Shown: positions 5,471 to 12,613 of the stretch, in pieces
Layout of the letters: each line of letters opens with the position of its first letter
Position numbering within the stretch: position 1 is the stretch's first letter
DNA from: Desulfobacterales bacterium
Lineage (GTDB): Bacteria; Desulfobacterota; Desulfobacteria; Desulfobacterales; JAHEIW01
Direction of reading: 5' to 3'
Assembly: GCA_030066985.1 (NCBI GenBank)
Contig: JASJAN010000010.1
Location: forward strand, 1 to 64,000
Length of the DNA stretch: 64,000 nucleotides
Position numbers and translations under genes: made by a program
Notes under the pieces: generated by a model
The model's database searches: none
The model's input: only the letters and a program-made list of their open reading frames with translations
What the model was told of the DNA's origin: nothing

Positions 5471-6592
5471 TCAAGTCTTCTGCTTTAAACCGGGGAATTT
5501 GCGGTCCAGCACTTTGCGGTTTTGAGCGGCTGTATCTTTTTTGCGGGCCGACCAGGTCTGGACCTTTTTTAGCGCCCGGGATGTCTTTTGGGGAAAATCC
5601 TTGGTGCGGTTTTCCTCAATAGCCGAGGGTCGGGCGTCGGCAAAAATGGCGCGGCCGACGGGTGTGCGGGTTATGACGGTGGTCCAGCCTTCCTCGGAGC
5701 CGATACCGCCAAATGATATATCAGCGTATTCGGCAGAATAATCCGGGCAGAAATAGCAGGCAAAGCGTTTCATGAACTCGAGCTCTTCGAGCATCATGGT
5801 TTTTTCTTTACCGCCTTTCAAGTGGACGATCAGCTCTTCTTTGATGTTTATTTTTTTGACATCCTTAAATTTAAATGCACCGATCTGACCGATTTTTTCC
5901 TGCTCTTTTTTGCCGAACACAAAATTACCCGAGCAAAATAAACCCAGGCAGAATTTAATCGAATCAGAGGGAATGATGCCCAAAGCCTGCATGCGCCGTA
6001 CCGCTTTGATCTGGCAGGGGGTGCCCACAAAGGCCACACGCGACAGGCCTTTTTTGATCAGGGGATCAAATTCTTTGATCTGTGAATAGGTTAAATAATA
6101 ATCGCTGAAATTGGTCATGCCGTGGGAGGTATCAAAGGAAAAGCCGGCGGCCTCCAGGATGTCTTTTTCGGTCTCCGCCAGAAACGGCAGGCGCTGAAAC
6201 GGGCCGGCCGGTTTGGTGACGATGGCGCCGTCAATGCGGCCGCGTTTGAACAAATGTACCAGCAAAGCGGTGACCACCCCGCCGTCGGTGGCCTTTTTGC
6301 GGATTTTGGGATCCACGGCCCGGGCAATACTGGTTTCAATCACGCGCCCGATGGGCGGGATCCAGCCCGAACTTTGGCGGGTTTCTTCATCCAGCTCGTC
6401 AATCTCAGGGCAGATGCTATGGCACAGGCCGCATTCAATGCATTTGGCTTCATCCGCATAGCGGGGCTTGCCTTCGCTGTCCAATTCCAGGGCAGCGTAA
6501 TTAACGGCCGTGCAAAAGGTCACGCACCCGCCGCAGCGATGGCACAGCCCAGGTTTCTGCACATCCTCAATCAAATTAGTAAAGGTTTTCAT
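5471..6592 (-). CDS. FrhB/FdhB-type flavin iron-sulfur oxidoreductase
   Basis: A 373-residue protein of the coenzyme F420 hydrogenase/dehydrogenase beta-subunit family. Two [4Fe-4S] motifs sit at the N-terminus (CHRCGGCVTFC about 17-27 and CIECGLCHSICP about 51-62), followed by the FrhB flavin domain with FVGTPCQIKAVRR and a conserved Cys pair near FACYFCPD. In this family the FAD passes electrons between a soluble carrier and an Fe-S partner. It is the last gene of the minus-strand Hdr operon, 140 bp below hdrA, and probably docks on HdrA as an electron entry or exit module. Whether the carrier is F420, NAD(P)H, formate dehydrogenase or ferredoxin is not visible. Start supported by GGAG before ATG. 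Confidence 0.85.
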   Translation of the reverse strand: MKTFTNLIEDVQKPGLCHRCGGCVTFCTAVNYAALELDSEGKPRYADEAKCIECGLCHSICPEIDELDEETRQSSGWIPPIGRVIETSIARAVDPKIRKKATDGGVVTALLVHLFKRGRIDGAIVTKPAGPFQRLPFLAETEKDILEAAGFSFDTSHGMTNFSDYYLTYSQIKEFDPLIKKGLSRVAFVGTPCQIKAVRRMQALGIIPSDSIKFCLGLFCSGNFVFGKKEQEKIGQIGAFKFKDVKKINIKEELIVHLKGGKEKTMMLEELEFMKRFACYFCPDYSAEYADISFGGIGSEEGWTTVITRTPVGRAIFADARPSAIEENRTKDFPQKTSRALKKVQTWSARKKDTAAQNRKVLDRKFPGLKQKT

Positions 6593-6732: not shown

Positions 6733-9700
6733 TTAGCTAAAAATCGATTCTGATGGTACACCCTCGAATAAGCACGTCTTGAGCTGCGCAAATATCTGGC
6801 CGGTGTCAAAGCCTTTCAAATGAATGGCCGCAGAGCGGCAGGAGGCCACGCACAGCCCGCAACCCTTACACAGGGTGGCTTGAATTTCAGCTTTGCCGCT
6901 TTTTTCATCAAATTTGGGCGCCGAATAGGGGCAGATATCCACGCAAACCCCGCAGCTGCTGCAAAAGTTCGGATCTACCATGGCCACCGTGCCGCTGACG
7001 GAGACTTCCAGGGCAGATAAAACCGTTACTGCCCGGGAGGCAGCGGCCTGAGCCTGGACGATGGATTCTTCTATCGGTTTGGGTGCGTGCGCGAGACCGC
7101 AGACAAATACGCCATCGGTGGCAAAATCATTGGGCCGCAGTTTGACATGTGCCTCGGCAAAAAAGCCATCGTCATTTTGCGGCACCTTAAACATTTGCGC
7201 CAGGGGGTTGGCTTTTTGCGGCACCACCGCACTGGCCAGAACCAGCAGGTCGCTTTCGATCACCATCTGTCTTCTGAGCACCCGATCGGTAAAGGTAATG
7301 TTGAGGCCATTTTCGGCGGCGCCGACCCCGATTTCCTGGTCGTTGTCATAGCGGATAAACTTAATGCCCTGTTCGCGCGCTTCGCGGTAAAGATCCTCCC
7401 TGAGACCGTAAGCACGCAGATCGCGATATAATATGAAAATATCCGTAGCAGGATTTTGGGCCTTGAGGCTCAGGGCGCTTTTAATCGATGCGGTGCAGCA
7501 CACTTTGGAACAATAGGGGCGCTCGGGATTCCGTGATCCCACACATTGGACAAATACAGCCGTGCGACCGGGATCAAACCCGTTGCCGGCCTTGAGTTTG
7601 TTCTGGAGCTCCAGACCGGTAAGTACCCGCTGATCCTGGCCGTACAGATAGTCGTCGGGCTTAAACTCCTCGGCGCCCGAAGCAATCAGGGTCACACCGT
7701 GTTCGACAACGTTGTTTTCCCCGTTTATCTGGACCGTGGTTTTAAAATTGCCGATAAATCCATCCACATTGTCAATCCGGGCATTTAACAGCAACTCGAT
7801 GTTTTCATCAGCGCTAACATCAGCGATCAGGCTGTCGAGAAACGGGCCGATCGCCTCGGCCTGCCAAGTTTCCGCCAGGTGGCGGGCCTGGCCGCCCAGT
7901 TGTTTGTTTTTTTCCACCACCACGGTTTTGTACCCCTGATCGGCCAATGTCTTAGCCGCCGTCAGACCGGCCATGCCGCCACCGATGACCATGGCGGTCT
8001 GGTTGATTTTCATTTTGGGCTCCGCCAGGGGCTCATGCAGCGCGACCTTGGCCACCGCCATCTGCAGCAGGTCTTTGGATTTATCGGTGGCCTTGTCCAT
8101 GTCGTCTTTGTGCACCCAGGAGCACTGGTTGCGGATATTGGCCATCTCAAAAAGGTATTTGTTGAGCCCGCCGTTGATCAGGGTTTCCTGAAAAAGGGGC
8201 TCATGGGTCTTGGGTGTGCAGGCGGTCACCACCACCCGGTTGAGGCGGTGCTTTTTGATGGTCTCTGAAATCTGGGTCTGGGTATCCTGTGAGCAGCTGA
8301 ACAGGTTTTGCTCGGCGTAGACCACATTCGGCAGGGTTTTGGCGTATTCGACCACGGCGGGCACATCCACAAACCCGGCGATATTGGTGCCGCAGCAGCA
8401 GACAAACACGCCGATACGCGGCGGCTCGCCTTTGATATCGATCTCTTCGGGCAGCGCTTTGGTTTTGGTCAGCGTTCCGCGAGCATCTGCCAGCCGGGCG
8501 CCGACTTTGCCGGCCGCCGCACTGGCATCGATGACCGACGACGGAATGTCTTGCGGCTCGTGAAAAGCGCCGCACACATAGATCCCCGGTCGCGAGCTTT
8601 GAACCGGATCAAATCCGCCGGCGCGGGCAAACTGATAGGAATTTAAATCAATATCCAGTTTCTGGGCCAGCGCAACCGCCTGTTCCCGGGCGCCCAAACC
8701 CACCGACAGCACGACGATATCAAATTCTTCTGCCTGACTATGGCCGGCCGCATCGACATAGCGAATCAAGTGCTTGCCGTTATCGCCCATGGGCTCGACA
8801 TGCGTGATGCGCGATTTAACGAAACGCACCCCCAGATCATCTTTGGCCTTGTTGTAGTAGCGCTCGAAATCTTTGCCGAAGGTGCGAATGTCGATGTAAA
8901 AGATGGCCGTATCCAGGCCGTCGCTGCTGTGCTCTTTGGCCAGGATAGCCTCTTTGACAGCGTAGGTGCAGCAGACTGCCGAGCAGTAACCACGGGCGCC
9001 GATGTGTGTGTCGCGGGATCCAACGCATTGCAGCCAGGCAATTTTTTCAGGCTCGGTTTTATCCGAAGGTCGCAGCAGGTGCCCGCCATAGGGCCCGGAG
9101 GCCGACAGGATTCTTTCAAATTCCAGGCTGGTGACAATGTTGGGAGATGCTGAATAGCCGAAGGTGTCATAGGTGCTTGGATCAAAGGCCTCGCTGCCGG
9201 CGGCAATGACCACTGCGCCCACTTTCAGCTTGAGGTCTGTTTTTTGATCTTCAAAATTGATGGCGCCTGTTGGGCAAAATTTTTCACAGGCTTTGCATTT
9301 GCCTTTCAGAAAATAAATACAGGTATCGGCATCAATGGTGTATTTTAGCGGCACCGCCTGGGCGTACTGCACATAAACGGCCTTGCGCTTGCTCAGCCCG
9401 CCGTCATAGGCGTTGGATACTTTTTTGGGGCATTTTTCCGCGCAGGCATCACAGGCAATACATTTGTCCATGTCGACATAGCGCGGGTGTTGTGTCAATT
9501 GGACGTCAAAGTTGCCTTCTTTACCGCTGATACTGTCAACTTCAGTAAGGGTGAGCAACTCGATGTTGATGTGCCGGCCGACCTCGACCAGTTTCGGCGA
9601 TATGATTCACATCGCACAGTCATTGGTGGGAAAGGTTTTGTCCAACTGCGACATCATGCCGCCGATGGAACTCGAGCCTTCCACCAGGTAGACATAATAG

Positions 9701-9786
9701 CCGGAATCGGCAAGATCCAGAGCGGCTTGCATGCCGGCTATCCCGCCACCCACGACCATGACTGCGCCTGTGCCTGATTGCGACAT
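6733..9786 (-). CDS. hdrA: Double-length HdrA with in-frame UGA (selenocysteine)
   Basis: The flavin and Fe-S electron-splitting subunit of heterodisulfide-reductase-like complexes, about 1017 residues including Sec60. It starts at the ATG at 9786, two bases after the hdrB stop, with GGAG in place. The frame then meets TGA at 9607-9609, but continues in frame with high family similarity on both sides: FPTNDCAM-(TGA)[12 protein letters not shown], where relatives carry Cys. Order: FAD motif GGGIAGMQ (13-20), Sec60, Fe-S motifs [11 protein letters not shown] and CKACEKFCP, a second HdrA-type start with VCCCGTN (about 466), a second FAD motif [10 protein letters not shown] (about 604), and two C-terminal ferredoxin clusters ([22 protein letters not shown]). 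A standard caller would start it falsely at a TTG at 9558. Confidence 0.92.
9577..9609 (-). promoter_or_regulatory. Sec UGA codon with candidate bacterial SECIS hairpin
   Basis: TGA occupies 9609-9607. Eight bases later GCCGA (9598-9594) pairs perfectly with TCGGC (9581-9577); inside, CU pairs with AG and leaves an apical loop GGUCG at 9589-9585, beginning 17 bases after the UGA. A small loop opening with G at that distance fits the bacterial SECIS pattern as I recall it. The selenocysteine machinery genes are not in this window. Confidence 0.6.
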
Positions 9787-9788
9787 AA

Positions 9789-10664
9789 TTACTCCGTTAT
9801 TAGAAAGGATGTAATGTTGGTTAAATCAATTTCATTTCGATCAATGCCCAGGGTTTTTTCATCGATACCCATGCTTAAACCCAGCAATTGAGGGTACAGG
9901 ATTGGCGCCAGGGTTTCGCCGTCGTTCGATTGCGCGGCCATACGCTTTTGCACGCCGTCAAACTGCAGCTGGGTATAGGGGCAAGCGGTGCAGATAAACT
10001 GAGCACCGGTCTCCCGGGCGCTGTCGATTTTCTTTTGCGCCATATCCATGGCCAGCTGATCATTGACGCCGGTCAGGGGCGCACCACAGCAATCCAGTTT
10101 GCGGGTCCACTCGACGCTAAAGGCGCCGGTGGCCTCAACGAGTTCATCAAAAATTTTGGGAGAGACCGGATCATCAAATGCGGTTATCGAGCTGGGTCTT
10201 AAAGCATGACAACCGTAGCTGACCGCTATTTGAAGACCGCTATAGGCTTTGGAAATTTCTTCTTTTATGCGTTTCAGTCCCACATCATGATATAGGGCCG
10301 ACAACAGGTGTTTGACACTGGTTTGGTGTTGATATGCCAGATTTTCCCGGCCCAGGATACGGTTGATGTCCGCTGTCAACTCCGCATCCTGGCCTAAAAA
10401 ATATTCCGCTCGTTTTAAACTGCCGTAGCAGCACTTGCACATCACCAGCATATCTAATCCGGCTTGCTCGGCAAGCGCCAGGTTTTTGGCAGCCGACAGG
10501 ACATAGGCGCGATGATCGGAGTTGCGCACCGGATACCCGCAGCAATTAAAGCCGTCCATCTCAACCAGCTCGATACCCAGCCGGGCGCATACGGCTGCGG
10601 TAGCGTCAGCGTATTGCTCAACGCGGGAAGGGATGTTGCAGCCATGGAACAACGCAAACTTCAT
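9789..10664 (-). CDS. hdrB: HdrB: CCG-domain subunit with noncubane cluster motifs
   Basis: A 291-residue protein with two complete CCG modules: Cys9, Cys41-Cys42, Cys76, Cys79, and Cys152, Cys192-Cys193, Cys225, Cys228. Both fit the Cx(31-39)CCx(31-36)CxxC spacing that holds the paired noncubane [4Fe-4S] clusters which cleave disulfides in HdrB. No membrane segment or signal peptide. It follows the membrane HdrE/C-like gene and is translationally coupled to hdrA (two-base gap). In this operon HdrB would be the disulfide-reducing or dithiol-oxidising site; the physiological disulfide is not known (DsrC-like thiols are possible). Start supported by AAGGAAA upstream. Confidence 0.92.
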
Positions 10665-10873: not shown

Positions 10874-12613
10874 CTATTGCTCAATGGATGCGACCGCGAA
10901 GTTTTTCAAGCGATACAAAATATCACACACCTCCACCTGCTGCGGGCAGTTTTCCTGGCATTTGTAGCAGGTCAAACAATCCCAGATCATACCGGCACCG
11001 GACGCCATCTCGTTTAGTCCCAAACCCAAACTGCACATGATTTGATGCGGCAGCAAGCCGAGCTCCTGCTCGGGGTCATCATAGTTGGCAACCACCGGGC
11101 AAACCGTTGTGCAGCTCTGGCAGCTGAAACAATGGACGTAAGTACGGTCTTTTATGGCCGGTTGGGCTTCCGGGTCGGCCTGCGCATTCAGCGGGATGGG
11201 CGTGTCCGGATCGGTCAGGTTAACAAAGTGGCCGGATACCACCTGCCGGGCCTTATCAACCGGCGCGCTGTAACTGTCGGCGCCAAGAGTTTGTTGAACG
11301 ATCAACCCCCGGGCAAAGGAAAAAGGGCTTAACACGTAGGGCAGCGGCGGACCCTCTGCCAGCAGAGACTCGCGCACACTGTACCACAGCTCTTTTAGCC
11401 GGATACCGGAAGGACAGCGCACCGTACAGCGATCGCAGTTGGTGCACAGATAGACACCCTCCTGGATGGCGCGCATCTGGGCATCATCCAATTTTTTGCC
11501 GGCTGCCATTTTTTTGAGCAACGTCATTTTTTCCGAAGGTAGGATGTATTCGTTGCCGATGGCCTCAAAGACCATGCCCGCCGAACAGTTCAGACTGCAG
11601 CTTCCGCAGTGAGTGCAGGCATCCAGCTCCATGACCTGGCGCGTGACCACGTTGGCCGGCACTGATTTTTTCGGATCCATGACGCGGTTGGCGATCAGGC
11701 TAATGGGGGTGGCAAACAGGTGAAACATTTTGCTGAATGGCAAATAGGCCAGCCCGATAAAGCAGGCGATAATATGCACGTACCACAACAGGGTAACACC
11801 GTTGAGGTCATCCAGCCACAAAGCAATCGGTTTAATGAACTTGGCAGTGGCAAACCCGGTGAATGCATGGGATGCCGGTGCATGGCAGTCCAGGCAGCTG
11901 CTTTCGTGCACTTCAAGGCCGGCCTCCAGCAGCTCCTCGTCAAAAGGCGCCTGGATGGTGGGCGAGACCGTGCCGTATTCTTTGACCCAGAGGGTTTCCA
12001 GCGCCGCAATTTCCTCTTCGTCATCCAGACCGGCATAGTCGTCAACCATGCGCATAAATTCGCTGTGAGAGGCGATTTTAAGACCCAGCAGGGCGACTCC
12101 GGACAGCATGATCACCGCCACGATCATGATGGCATAATGATCCATTGCGCCTGTCTTAAGGCGGCGGGGCTTTACAAGGTATCGGCGAACCATGGCCAGG
12201 ATCACGCCGGCCAGCACCATGGCACCGAAAAAATCCCGCAGAAAGAAAAACGGGTTTACAGTGGAATAATATTCGCTGAATAATGCTTCTGAAATCACGG
12301 ATTCCAGGGCATGCATCAGCAACAGCAGCATAAAGCCGTAAAATATCAACATATGCGCCAGCCAGCGCGAAACGCTTTCTTTAAAAACGCGGCGCTGCAG
12401 CAGGACATCCAGCACGATCGCCTCGATGAGACCAAGGATTTTTGAGCTGAAAATGACGCGGACGAAACCAACCGCAGCCGCCTGCAGCCGTTGGGCCGTC
12501 GTGAAGTCGTTTCCCAAAATGCCGATTTTACGGCTAAACCAGGTAGAGATTTTGTAGATCAATCCCAGGAGAAAGATAACAAGAGAGGTATAAAAGAGAT
12601 AATCAAACACCAT
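10874..12613 (-). CDS. Membrane HdrE/HdrC-like fusion with a c-type heme and four Fe-S motifs
   Basis: A 579-residue predicted quinone-interacting subunit. The N-terminal third has about six hydrophobic segments resembling NarI/HdrE cytochrome b. A heme c motif CLDCH (240-244) lies between the last two segments, presumably outside the membrane. Two HdrC-like ferredoxin modules follow: CTHCGSCSLNC (333-343) with CTNCDRCTVRC (390-400), and CFSCQSCTTVC (495-505) with CLTCYKCQENC (546-556). In QmoC the order is HdrC then HdrE; here it is reversed and the Fe-S part doubled. First gene of the operon, so it likely connects menaquinone to HdrB/HdrA. Start has AAGGATG upstream. Confidence 0.8.
   Translation of the reverse strand: MVFDYLFYTSLVIFLLGLIYKISTWFSRKIGILGNDFTTAQRLQAAAVGFVRVIFSSKILGLIEAIVLDVLLQRRVFKESVSRWLAHMLIFYGFMLLLLMHALESVISEALFSEYYSTVNPFFFLRDFFGAMVLAGVILAMVRRYLVKPRRLKTGAMDHYAIMIVAVIMLSGVALLGLKIASHSEFMRMVDDYAGLDDEEEIAALETLWVKEYGTVSPTIQAPFDEELLEAGLEVHESSCLDCHAPASHAFTGFATAKFIKPIALWLDDLNGVTLLWYVHIIACFIGLAYLPFSKMFHLFATPISLIANRVMDPKKSVPANVVTRQVMELDACTHCGSCSLNCSAGMVFEAIGNEYILPSEKMTLLKKMAAGKKLDDAQMRAIQEGVYLCTNCDRCTVRCPSGIRLKELWYSVRESLLAEGPPLPYVLSPFSFARGLIVQQTLGADSYSAPVDKARQVVSGHFVNLTDPDTPIPLNAQADPEAQPAIKDRTYVHCFSCQSCTTVCPVVANYDDPEQELGLLPHQIMCSLGLGLNEMASGAGMIWDCLTCYKCQENCPQQVEVCDILYRLKNFAVASIEQ

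Follow-up and report, generated by a model that had tools for sequence, protein, structure and literature searches.

Does the TGA at codon 60 of an hdrA gene in a Desulfobacterales bacterium end the reading frame, or is it read as selenocysteine (Sec)? The gene lies on the reverse strand of a window of 64,000 nt, i.e. the whole stretch of DNA analysed here, on contig JASJAN010000010.1 of the genome GCA_030066985.1, referred to in the following as the own genome; loci are labelled L### and genomes G###. An earlier reading of the sequence alone had described the start of the gene and its interrupted frame, and both were found as stated: the hdrB stop codon TAA at 9791-9789 and the hdrA start codon ATG at 9786 are separated by two bases, the sequence GGAG at 9795-9792 represents the probable ribosome-binding site, and 59 codons precede the TGA at 9607-9609 while 957 codons follow it up to the TAA at 6735-6733. 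It had also predicted that automated annotation would lose 76 residues. Indeed, calling with translation table 11 yields an open reading frame (ORF) of 941 amino acids from TTG 9558 instead of 1017 residues with Sec, and this truncation removes the first GxGxxG motif for binding of flavin adenine dinucleotide (FAD). From the evidence given below we consider it very probable (about 0.93) that hdrA is a selenoprotein gene with UGA recoded as the predicted Sec60.

The TGA column in relatives, paralogues and the phylum

In the alignment with the solved HdrA chain 5odc_A (E 7.6e-191), which starts with query residue 9 at chain residue 146 and is ungapped up to residue 60, the TGA falls on the second Cys of TFPTNDCSICILAPK, and this numbering gives residue 197 of the chain. 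Cys is also found at this column in the other aligned solved HdrA chains and in the Cys-type relatives, as the sequence-only reading had supposed. Five relatives of the same genus or family were compared, the fifth of which (G004) matches only from residue 405 onward. All four orthologues covering codon 60 (L036, L037, L038 and L045) have TGA; TGC or TGT, named beforehand as possible evidence to the contrary, was seen in none of them. The match of L045, located in the one-contig genome G001, is limited to residues 1-471, and this gene is possibly broken or split.

Four further HdrA genes of the own genome (L023, L024, L025 and L028) carry TGA at the same column. One of them, L028/L026 on contig 7 (111301-115719), is an HdrL-like gene of about 1478 codons with the same TGA and the hairpin described below, both located in its N-terminal HdrA part. 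Among culturable species, Desulfospira joergensenii (L088) and Desulfoluna spongiiphila (L124) have loci with this TGA as well. Pyrrolysine encoded by TAG was considered for L026 and rejected, the TAG being the natural end stop of the long gene. Among 395 genomes of the phylum, 117 contain the pattern PTNDC[AS]M-TGA and 109 the TGA together with the beginning of the stem, with zero counts in the reversed-pattern control columns of both searches.

A conserved hairpin behind the TGA

The hairpin 9591-9574 starts 15 nt behind the UGA. Its loop AGGU comprises 4 nt, begins at +23 (22 nt after the TGA) and has G in the second position. The model of the bacterial selenocysteine insertion sequence (bSECIS) quoted in PMC13188914 includes a small apical loop with G among the first two bases and a distance of 16-37 nt between loop and UGA, and the hairpin agrees with the model as quoted there.

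The comparison comprises 119 loci, 39 from the own and family genomes and 80 in named contigs (among the matches listed). A motif script recognised 118 sites, of which 51 have TGA and 67 have Cys at the column, and the removal of three near-copies left 48 TGA genes; the script did not recognise the Cys site L115, which hence stands outside the 48 and 67. Since the search of the named contigs used two peptides, one of them requiring TGY, and comprises only the matches listed, the ratio of TGA to Cys genes is not a frequency.

Across the 48 TGA genes, codons +6 to +11 have codon homozygosities of 0.84, 0.76, 1.00, 1.00, 0.72 and 0.84, compared with 0.22, 0.28, 0.51, 0.28, 0.27 and 0.20 expected from the codon use of these genes themselves. 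For the same six codons the 67 Cys genes show 0.24, 0.30, 0.49, 0.49, 0.26 and 0.18, which is near background (expected 0.20-0.51), and their commonest residue at +9 is Cys instead of Val. In the 27 Cys genes from own-family and Desulfobacterota-type loci the values are 0.23-0.52 (expected 0.21-0.55), with Leu +6 slightly raised (0.48 vs 0.31). Some codons of the TGA genes are raised outside this stretch too, mostly to a lesser degree, such as Ser at -20 (0.54 vs 0.21), Asp at -4 (0.84 vs 0.60), Ile at +1 (0.59 vs 0.36) and Lys at +5 (0.76 vs 0.51).

The pairing counts also separate the two groups. All seven pairs, G-U counted, are possible in 44 of the 48 TGA genes versus 2 of the 67 Cys genes, and in 0 of the 27 own-family and Desulfobacterota-type Cys genes. 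With the pairs fixed, -4 kcal/mol is reached by 39/48 TGA genes and 2/67 Cys genes, and when the search was relaxed to any bSECIS-like hairpin with at most -5 kcal/mol, the numbers were 47/48 and 8/67, respectively. Over 47 distinct TGA rows, 97.6% of the cells are paired. This conservation on the RNA level is the strongest evidence for the predicted recoding of hdrA.

The sequence-only reading was right in expecting a hairpin behind the TGA and wrong in placing it, as it had chosen a structure with the loop GGUCG. That hairpin is foldable, being the third of three folds, and unconserved: among its seven pairs, one is broken in 29 and another in 36 of the 47 distinct TGA genes, only 77.5% of the cells are paired, and pairing is equally good in 432 of 500 shuffles. 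It was therefore rejected.

Several observations speak against the weight given here to the conserved hairpin. The hairpin and codon statistics ignore the shared ancestry of the sequences. Covariation is thin, with two pairs showing one double change each in the 47 distinct rows, and in the shuffle test 21 to 27 of 500 shuffles match the measures of change, with 2 of 500 matching the percentage paired. The fold energies of the three folds are unremarkable compared with shuffled sequence (z -0.06, -0.28 and -0.21); energy alone is unusable as proof of a hairpin with z near zero, so the comparison between genes was used instead. That only 39 of the 48 TGA genes reach -4 kcal/mol is explained by weak stems in six genes with the loop AGUG and by three others without the hairpin. 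Finally, the Cys gene L115 still has the complete element seen in its Sec relatives, and TGA and element are thus not strictly coupled.

Deviating elements occur among the TGA genes. In the second TGA copies L088 (8835) and L128 (10004) a displaced hairpin, GGAUGUC-GGUC-GACAUCC, replaces the usual one, and L144 has a weak hairpin only. L091, L093, L097, L104, L107 and L108, TGA-type HdrA genes mainly from Desulfobulbales, show the loop AGUG for AGGU and a weaker canonical stem; in this group AGUGC-GGUCG-GCACU may be the actual element.

Selenocysteine machinery and use of TGA in the own genome

The own genome is a draft of 5.07 Mb in 81 contigs (97.8% complete, 2.9% contaminated). The search for selA, selB, selC and selD, proposed along with the sequence-only reading, detected SelA (614 bits, cut-off 268), SelB (376 bits, cut-off 242), SelD (356 bits, cut-off 125) and tRNA-Sec (75 bits, cut-off 47), the latter also assigned by ARAGORN as tRNA-SeC with the anticodon tca. 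Weaker, mostly sub-cut-off matches to SelB, SelD and tRNA-Sec exist in 14 of 14 control genomes, so only matches above the cut-offs were counted. The SelD gene itself (L018, contig 48) has one in-frame TGA and probably encodes a selenoprotein, too.

An in-frame TGA at a column where homologues have conserved Cys, combined with complete Sec machinery, corresponds to the sequence criteria for bacterial selenoproteins. The machinery and the TGA in all four covering orthologues support the selenoprotein proposed by the sequence-only reading. In the predicted mechanism, SelB with Sec-tRNA would bind the hairpin 9591-9574 behind the UGA, and selenocysteine would be inserted as residue 60, a position occupied by Cys in other HdrA proteins.

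Protein architecture and the proposed role of Sec60

The first half of the fused protein (about residues 1-440) is an HdrA without the N-terminal domain, and the second half (about 454-1016) is an HdrA with the N-terminal domain and without an equivalent of Cys197. The AlphaFold2 (AF2) model, based on an alignment of 58 rows, has a predicted local distance difference test score (pLDDT) of 90.4 and a predicted template modelling score (pTM) of 0.91. Its residues 1-435 fit residues 138-568 of 5odc_A (Z 34.9, 1.6 A). For the second half, the VIA-align rows are general thioredoxin-reductase folds, and its identity as HdrA comes from sequence. The position equivalent to residue 60 is Pro648 there, and a Cys anywhere in this stretch is found in 2/58 rows. 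The residues C463, C465, C498 and C523 of the N-terminal domain are each kept in 58/58 rows.

Cys197 has been described as a ligand of the cluster in the HdrA N-terminal domain which is supplied by the other copy of the dimer, and in tandem or fused HdrAs the Cys197 site and the N-terminal domain are located in complementary halves (PMC9012536). The same distribution was found here, with the Cys197 site in the first half only and the N-terminal cluster domain in the second only. As residue 60 corresponds to 197 and the halves are complementary, the strongest candidate for a fourth ligand is Sec60. The fused HdrA would then be its own dimer partner, Sec60 completing the [4Fe-4S] cluster of the second-half N-terminal domain next to Cys463/465, Cys498 and Cys523; we rate this proposal slightly below an even chance. 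In the literature searched, to which subscription journals including the 5odc structure paper did not belong, no statement on the Sec of HdrA as an Fe-S ligand was found. A 2026 review states that direct Sec-ligand interactions need confirmation, and in the text of PMC9012536 available to us selenocysteine is mentioned once, for FdhA.

Alternatively, Sec60 could be inserted and form one half of a CxxU redox pair (Cys57-x-x-Sec60), which would make a selenenylsulfide near the flavin, and take no part in Fe-S ligation. Reviews place HdrA under CxxU motifs (PMC13188914, PMC9312934), and Cys57 is as invariant as residue 60 (58/58 rows), which suits a redox pair as well as a ligand; this invariance arises partly by construction, since one search peptide contained both residues. 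Against such a pair stand the description of the solved complex, in which Cys197 of one HdrA copy ligates the cluster of its partner (PMC9012536), and the matching pattern of loss in fused HdrAs, this one included. We regard the redox pair as possible and somewhat doubtful. Besides the invariant Cys57, a further point counts against the fourth-ligand assignment of Sec60. PMC9012536 refers to an M. wolfeii structure and 5odc is titled M. thermolithotrophicus, so that identity of the protein is assumed from the number 197. Against the explanation as a whole stands that the cut-offs of the NCBIfam equivalogs for unfused HdrA and HdrA2 are missed (NF040770, 953 vs 1100; NF041778, 741 vs 1400; NF041891, 697 vs 1300), and the product is therefore placed only as an HdrA-family fusion.

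Readings without selenocysteine

If the TGA were a true stop or the gene were broken, translation would end at residue 59 or restart at TTG 9558, and table-11 calling produces exactly this 941-residue ORF. However, the frame before the TGA is conserved and carries the FAD motif, the four covering relatives share the TGA, the hairpin is present in 44 of 48 TGA genes, and the own genome has the complete Sec machinery, all of which makes this explanation very improbable. Even less credible is a sequencing or assembly error of TGC or TGT: the codon is one base away from Cys and the assembly is of draft quality with 81 contigs, but the same codon occurs in separate genomes (80-94% protein identity) and in four paralogues, which already refutes an error. 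The possibility that TGA generally codes for an amino acid here is practically negligible. Nothing was found in its favour; TGA is the ordinary terminator of 9 of the 36 ORFs chosen in the window, and in all five HdrA genes of the own genome it lies at one column.

Switching between selenocysteine and cysteine

For phylogenetic analysis, a tree was calculated from 31 Sec and 41 Cys proteins (72 in total), excluding the column of the Sec site and those of the 12 residues behind it. It requires at least seven changes between the Sec and Cys states, and the 58-row tree six. Both trees have no outgroup and carry quick-search supports, so we infer the direction of the switches rather than read it from a root. 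Within the clade of the window protein itself, L068 with Cys is the sister of L067 with Sec (support 99), and both share the neighbourhood of QmoC/HdrC, HdrB and HdrA. The stem in L068 (5121, TGT) is partly decayed: CTGGTCGAAGTCGGAAGA. L115 from Desulfobulbus rhabdoformis (5172, TGT) is located inside a Sec group, and its element is letter-identical to those of L091 and L093. A further Cys group among Sec relatives consists of L083, L085 and L086, the last being one mismatch away from the canonical element. The elements of L068 and L115 are apparent bSECIS fossils, and the Cys genes within Sec clades appear to represent reversions from Sec to Cys. For HdrA, no change from Sec to Cys appears in the table of the 2006 survey, though the survey does describe SECIS-like remnants elsewhere (PMC1794560).

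L024, L025 and L142 form a separate Sec group among Cys proteins and share the 18-nt element, exact in L024 and L025 and with one loop base altered in L142. Only close to the TGA is this group nearer to the main Sec clade than to its Cys neighbours. Between the own-genome copies, the 18 nt are identical, whereas of the flanking nucleotides only 53-61 of 75 upstream and 44-58 of 87 downstream agree. Gene conversion of a cassette of UGA and hairpin between paralogues was rejected, as no conversion tract was seen beyond the element; in this group the element may have arisen by convergence or through a very short tract.

Gene neighbourhood

The features of the region are compiled in Table 1. The product of the gene upstream of hdrB has Fer4 domains and a weak Nitrate_red_gam match, together with weak matches to QmoC and HdrC models, the latter two sub-cut-off; with 70.8 bits for the QmoC model, the curated cut-off of 300 for membership in QmoABC is missed. 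Among the loci compared, the hdrB neighbour is retained in L036-L038, L045 and L066-L069, the QmoC/HdrC-like neighbour in L036-L038, L045 and L067-L069, and the FrhB-like neighbour in L037, L038 and L046. With HdrB, QmoC/HdrC-like and FrhB-like proteins as neighbours, a membrane-linked Hdr complex is suggested. Tentatively, these proteins and HdrA may constitute a flavin-based, quinone-linked complex in which quinone, ferredoxin and an FrhB-type site would exchange electrons. A codon-usage scan of the window for read-through TGAs was of little power and, at the threshold used, did not pick up the known HdrA TGA; in a relaxed version, likewise of low power, this TGA ranked 4 of 333.

Table 1. 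Features of the hdrA region in window coordinates
Feature	Positions	Strand	Basis
hdrA, fused HdrA, 1017 residues with predicted Sec60	6733..9786	-	translation, NCBIfam, PDB alignments, AF2 model, comparison of halves
In-frame TGA, codon 60, predicted selenocysteine	9607..9609	-	sequence, relatives, alignment with 5odc_A
bSECIS-like hairpin CUGGUCG-AGGU-CGGCCGG	9574..9591	-	synonymous-codon conservation, pairing counts; nt +16 to +33 after TGA
Hairpin of the sequence-only reading, loop GGUCG	9577..9598	-	foldable (third of three folds), unconserved
GGAG, probable ribosome-binding site of hdrA, within the hdrB 3' end	9792..9795	-	sequence
hdrB, CCG-domain protein, directly upstream of hdrA	9789..10664	-	PF02754; TIGR03288 235 bits, below cut-off 345
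Fusion of a membrane cytochrome-b-like protein with HdrC-type Fe-S domains (QmoC/HdrC-like)	10874..12613	-	Fer4 domains; weak Nitrate_red_gam; sub-cut-off QmoC and HdrC matches
FrhB/FdhB-like protein with 4Fe-4S sites, downstream of hdrA	5471..6592	-	PF04432 + PF04422

Relation to known systems and significance

The sequence-only reading had referred to Sec-containing HdrA from methanogens and some Desulfobacterota, in agreement with the literature, where Sec-HdrA is an established selenoprotein family of methanogens and Deltaproteobacteria (PMC1794560, PMC2702500, PMC5109826, PMC13188914). Sec-HdrA of Deltaproteobacteria, including hdrA fusions, was published in 2006, with several copies per genome and hdrA-hdrA fusions in Syntrophobacter fumaroxidans and Syntrophus aciditrophicus; the operon glpC-hdrA-frhD-frhG-frhA given there differs from the QmoC/HdrC-like, HdrB and FrhB-like neighbours found here (PMC1794560). 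The sulfate reducer Desulfobacterium autotrophicum HRM2 likewise has Sec in HdrA1, HdrA2 and the long HdrL1 and HdrL3 as well as full Sec machinery, but mvhD follows all its HdrA and HdrL genes except HdrA4, where our gene is followed by an FrhB-like gene (PMC2702500). In Desulfococcus multivorans (dmul_C02770/80), hdrA also shows a UGA followed by a SECIS; unlike here, it is apparently hdrA1 beside mvhD1 and a pyridine nucleotide-disulphide oxidoreductase gene (PMC5109826).

Among archaea, Methanococcus maripaludis has a Sec form, HdrA-U, and raises its Cys isoform when selenium is short (PMC11097638). The SECIS elements of archaeal hdrA genes are located in untranslated regions (PMC11227280), in contrast to the hairpin in the coding sequence here. 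HdrA of Methanothermococcus thermolithotrophicus (5odc_A) has the same fold over residues 1-435 but is unfused and carries Cys at 197. HdrA3/HdrA4 of anaerobic methanotrophic archaea (ANME) and the Moorella fusions likewise have Cys197 in one unit and the N-terminal cluster domain in the other; in HdrA3/HdrA4 the cluster domain belongs to the N-terminal half, whereas the order is reversed here, with the predicted Sec instead of Cys (PMC9012536).

The gene thus adds a member to the known Sec-HdrA family. New in this study are the comparative definition of the element, the Sec/Cys switching on the 72-row tree and the proposal of Sec60 as a ligand. The results give a corrected reading of a core energy gene which is truncated by standard table-11 calling, and they provide PTNDC[AS]M-TGA as a sharp and reusable sequence signature of Sec-HdrA. 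Since Sec maps onto the described trans ligand Cys197, the role of selenium in HdrA becomes answerable by spectroscopy, and the orthologues L067 (Sec) and L068 (Cys) in the same neighbourhood represent a natural pair for comparison. On a wider view, which we put forward with reserve, HdrA selenoproteins may contain a natural Sec ligand on a [4Fe-4S] cluster across the pseudo-dimer interface. Instead of acting as a thiol-type catalyst, Sec would then tune the ferredoxin branch of electron bifurcation, either in its potential or in its sensitivity to oxygen, and the Desulfobacterota would repeatedly switch between a selenium and a sulfur ligand through gain or loss of one 18-nt hairpin.

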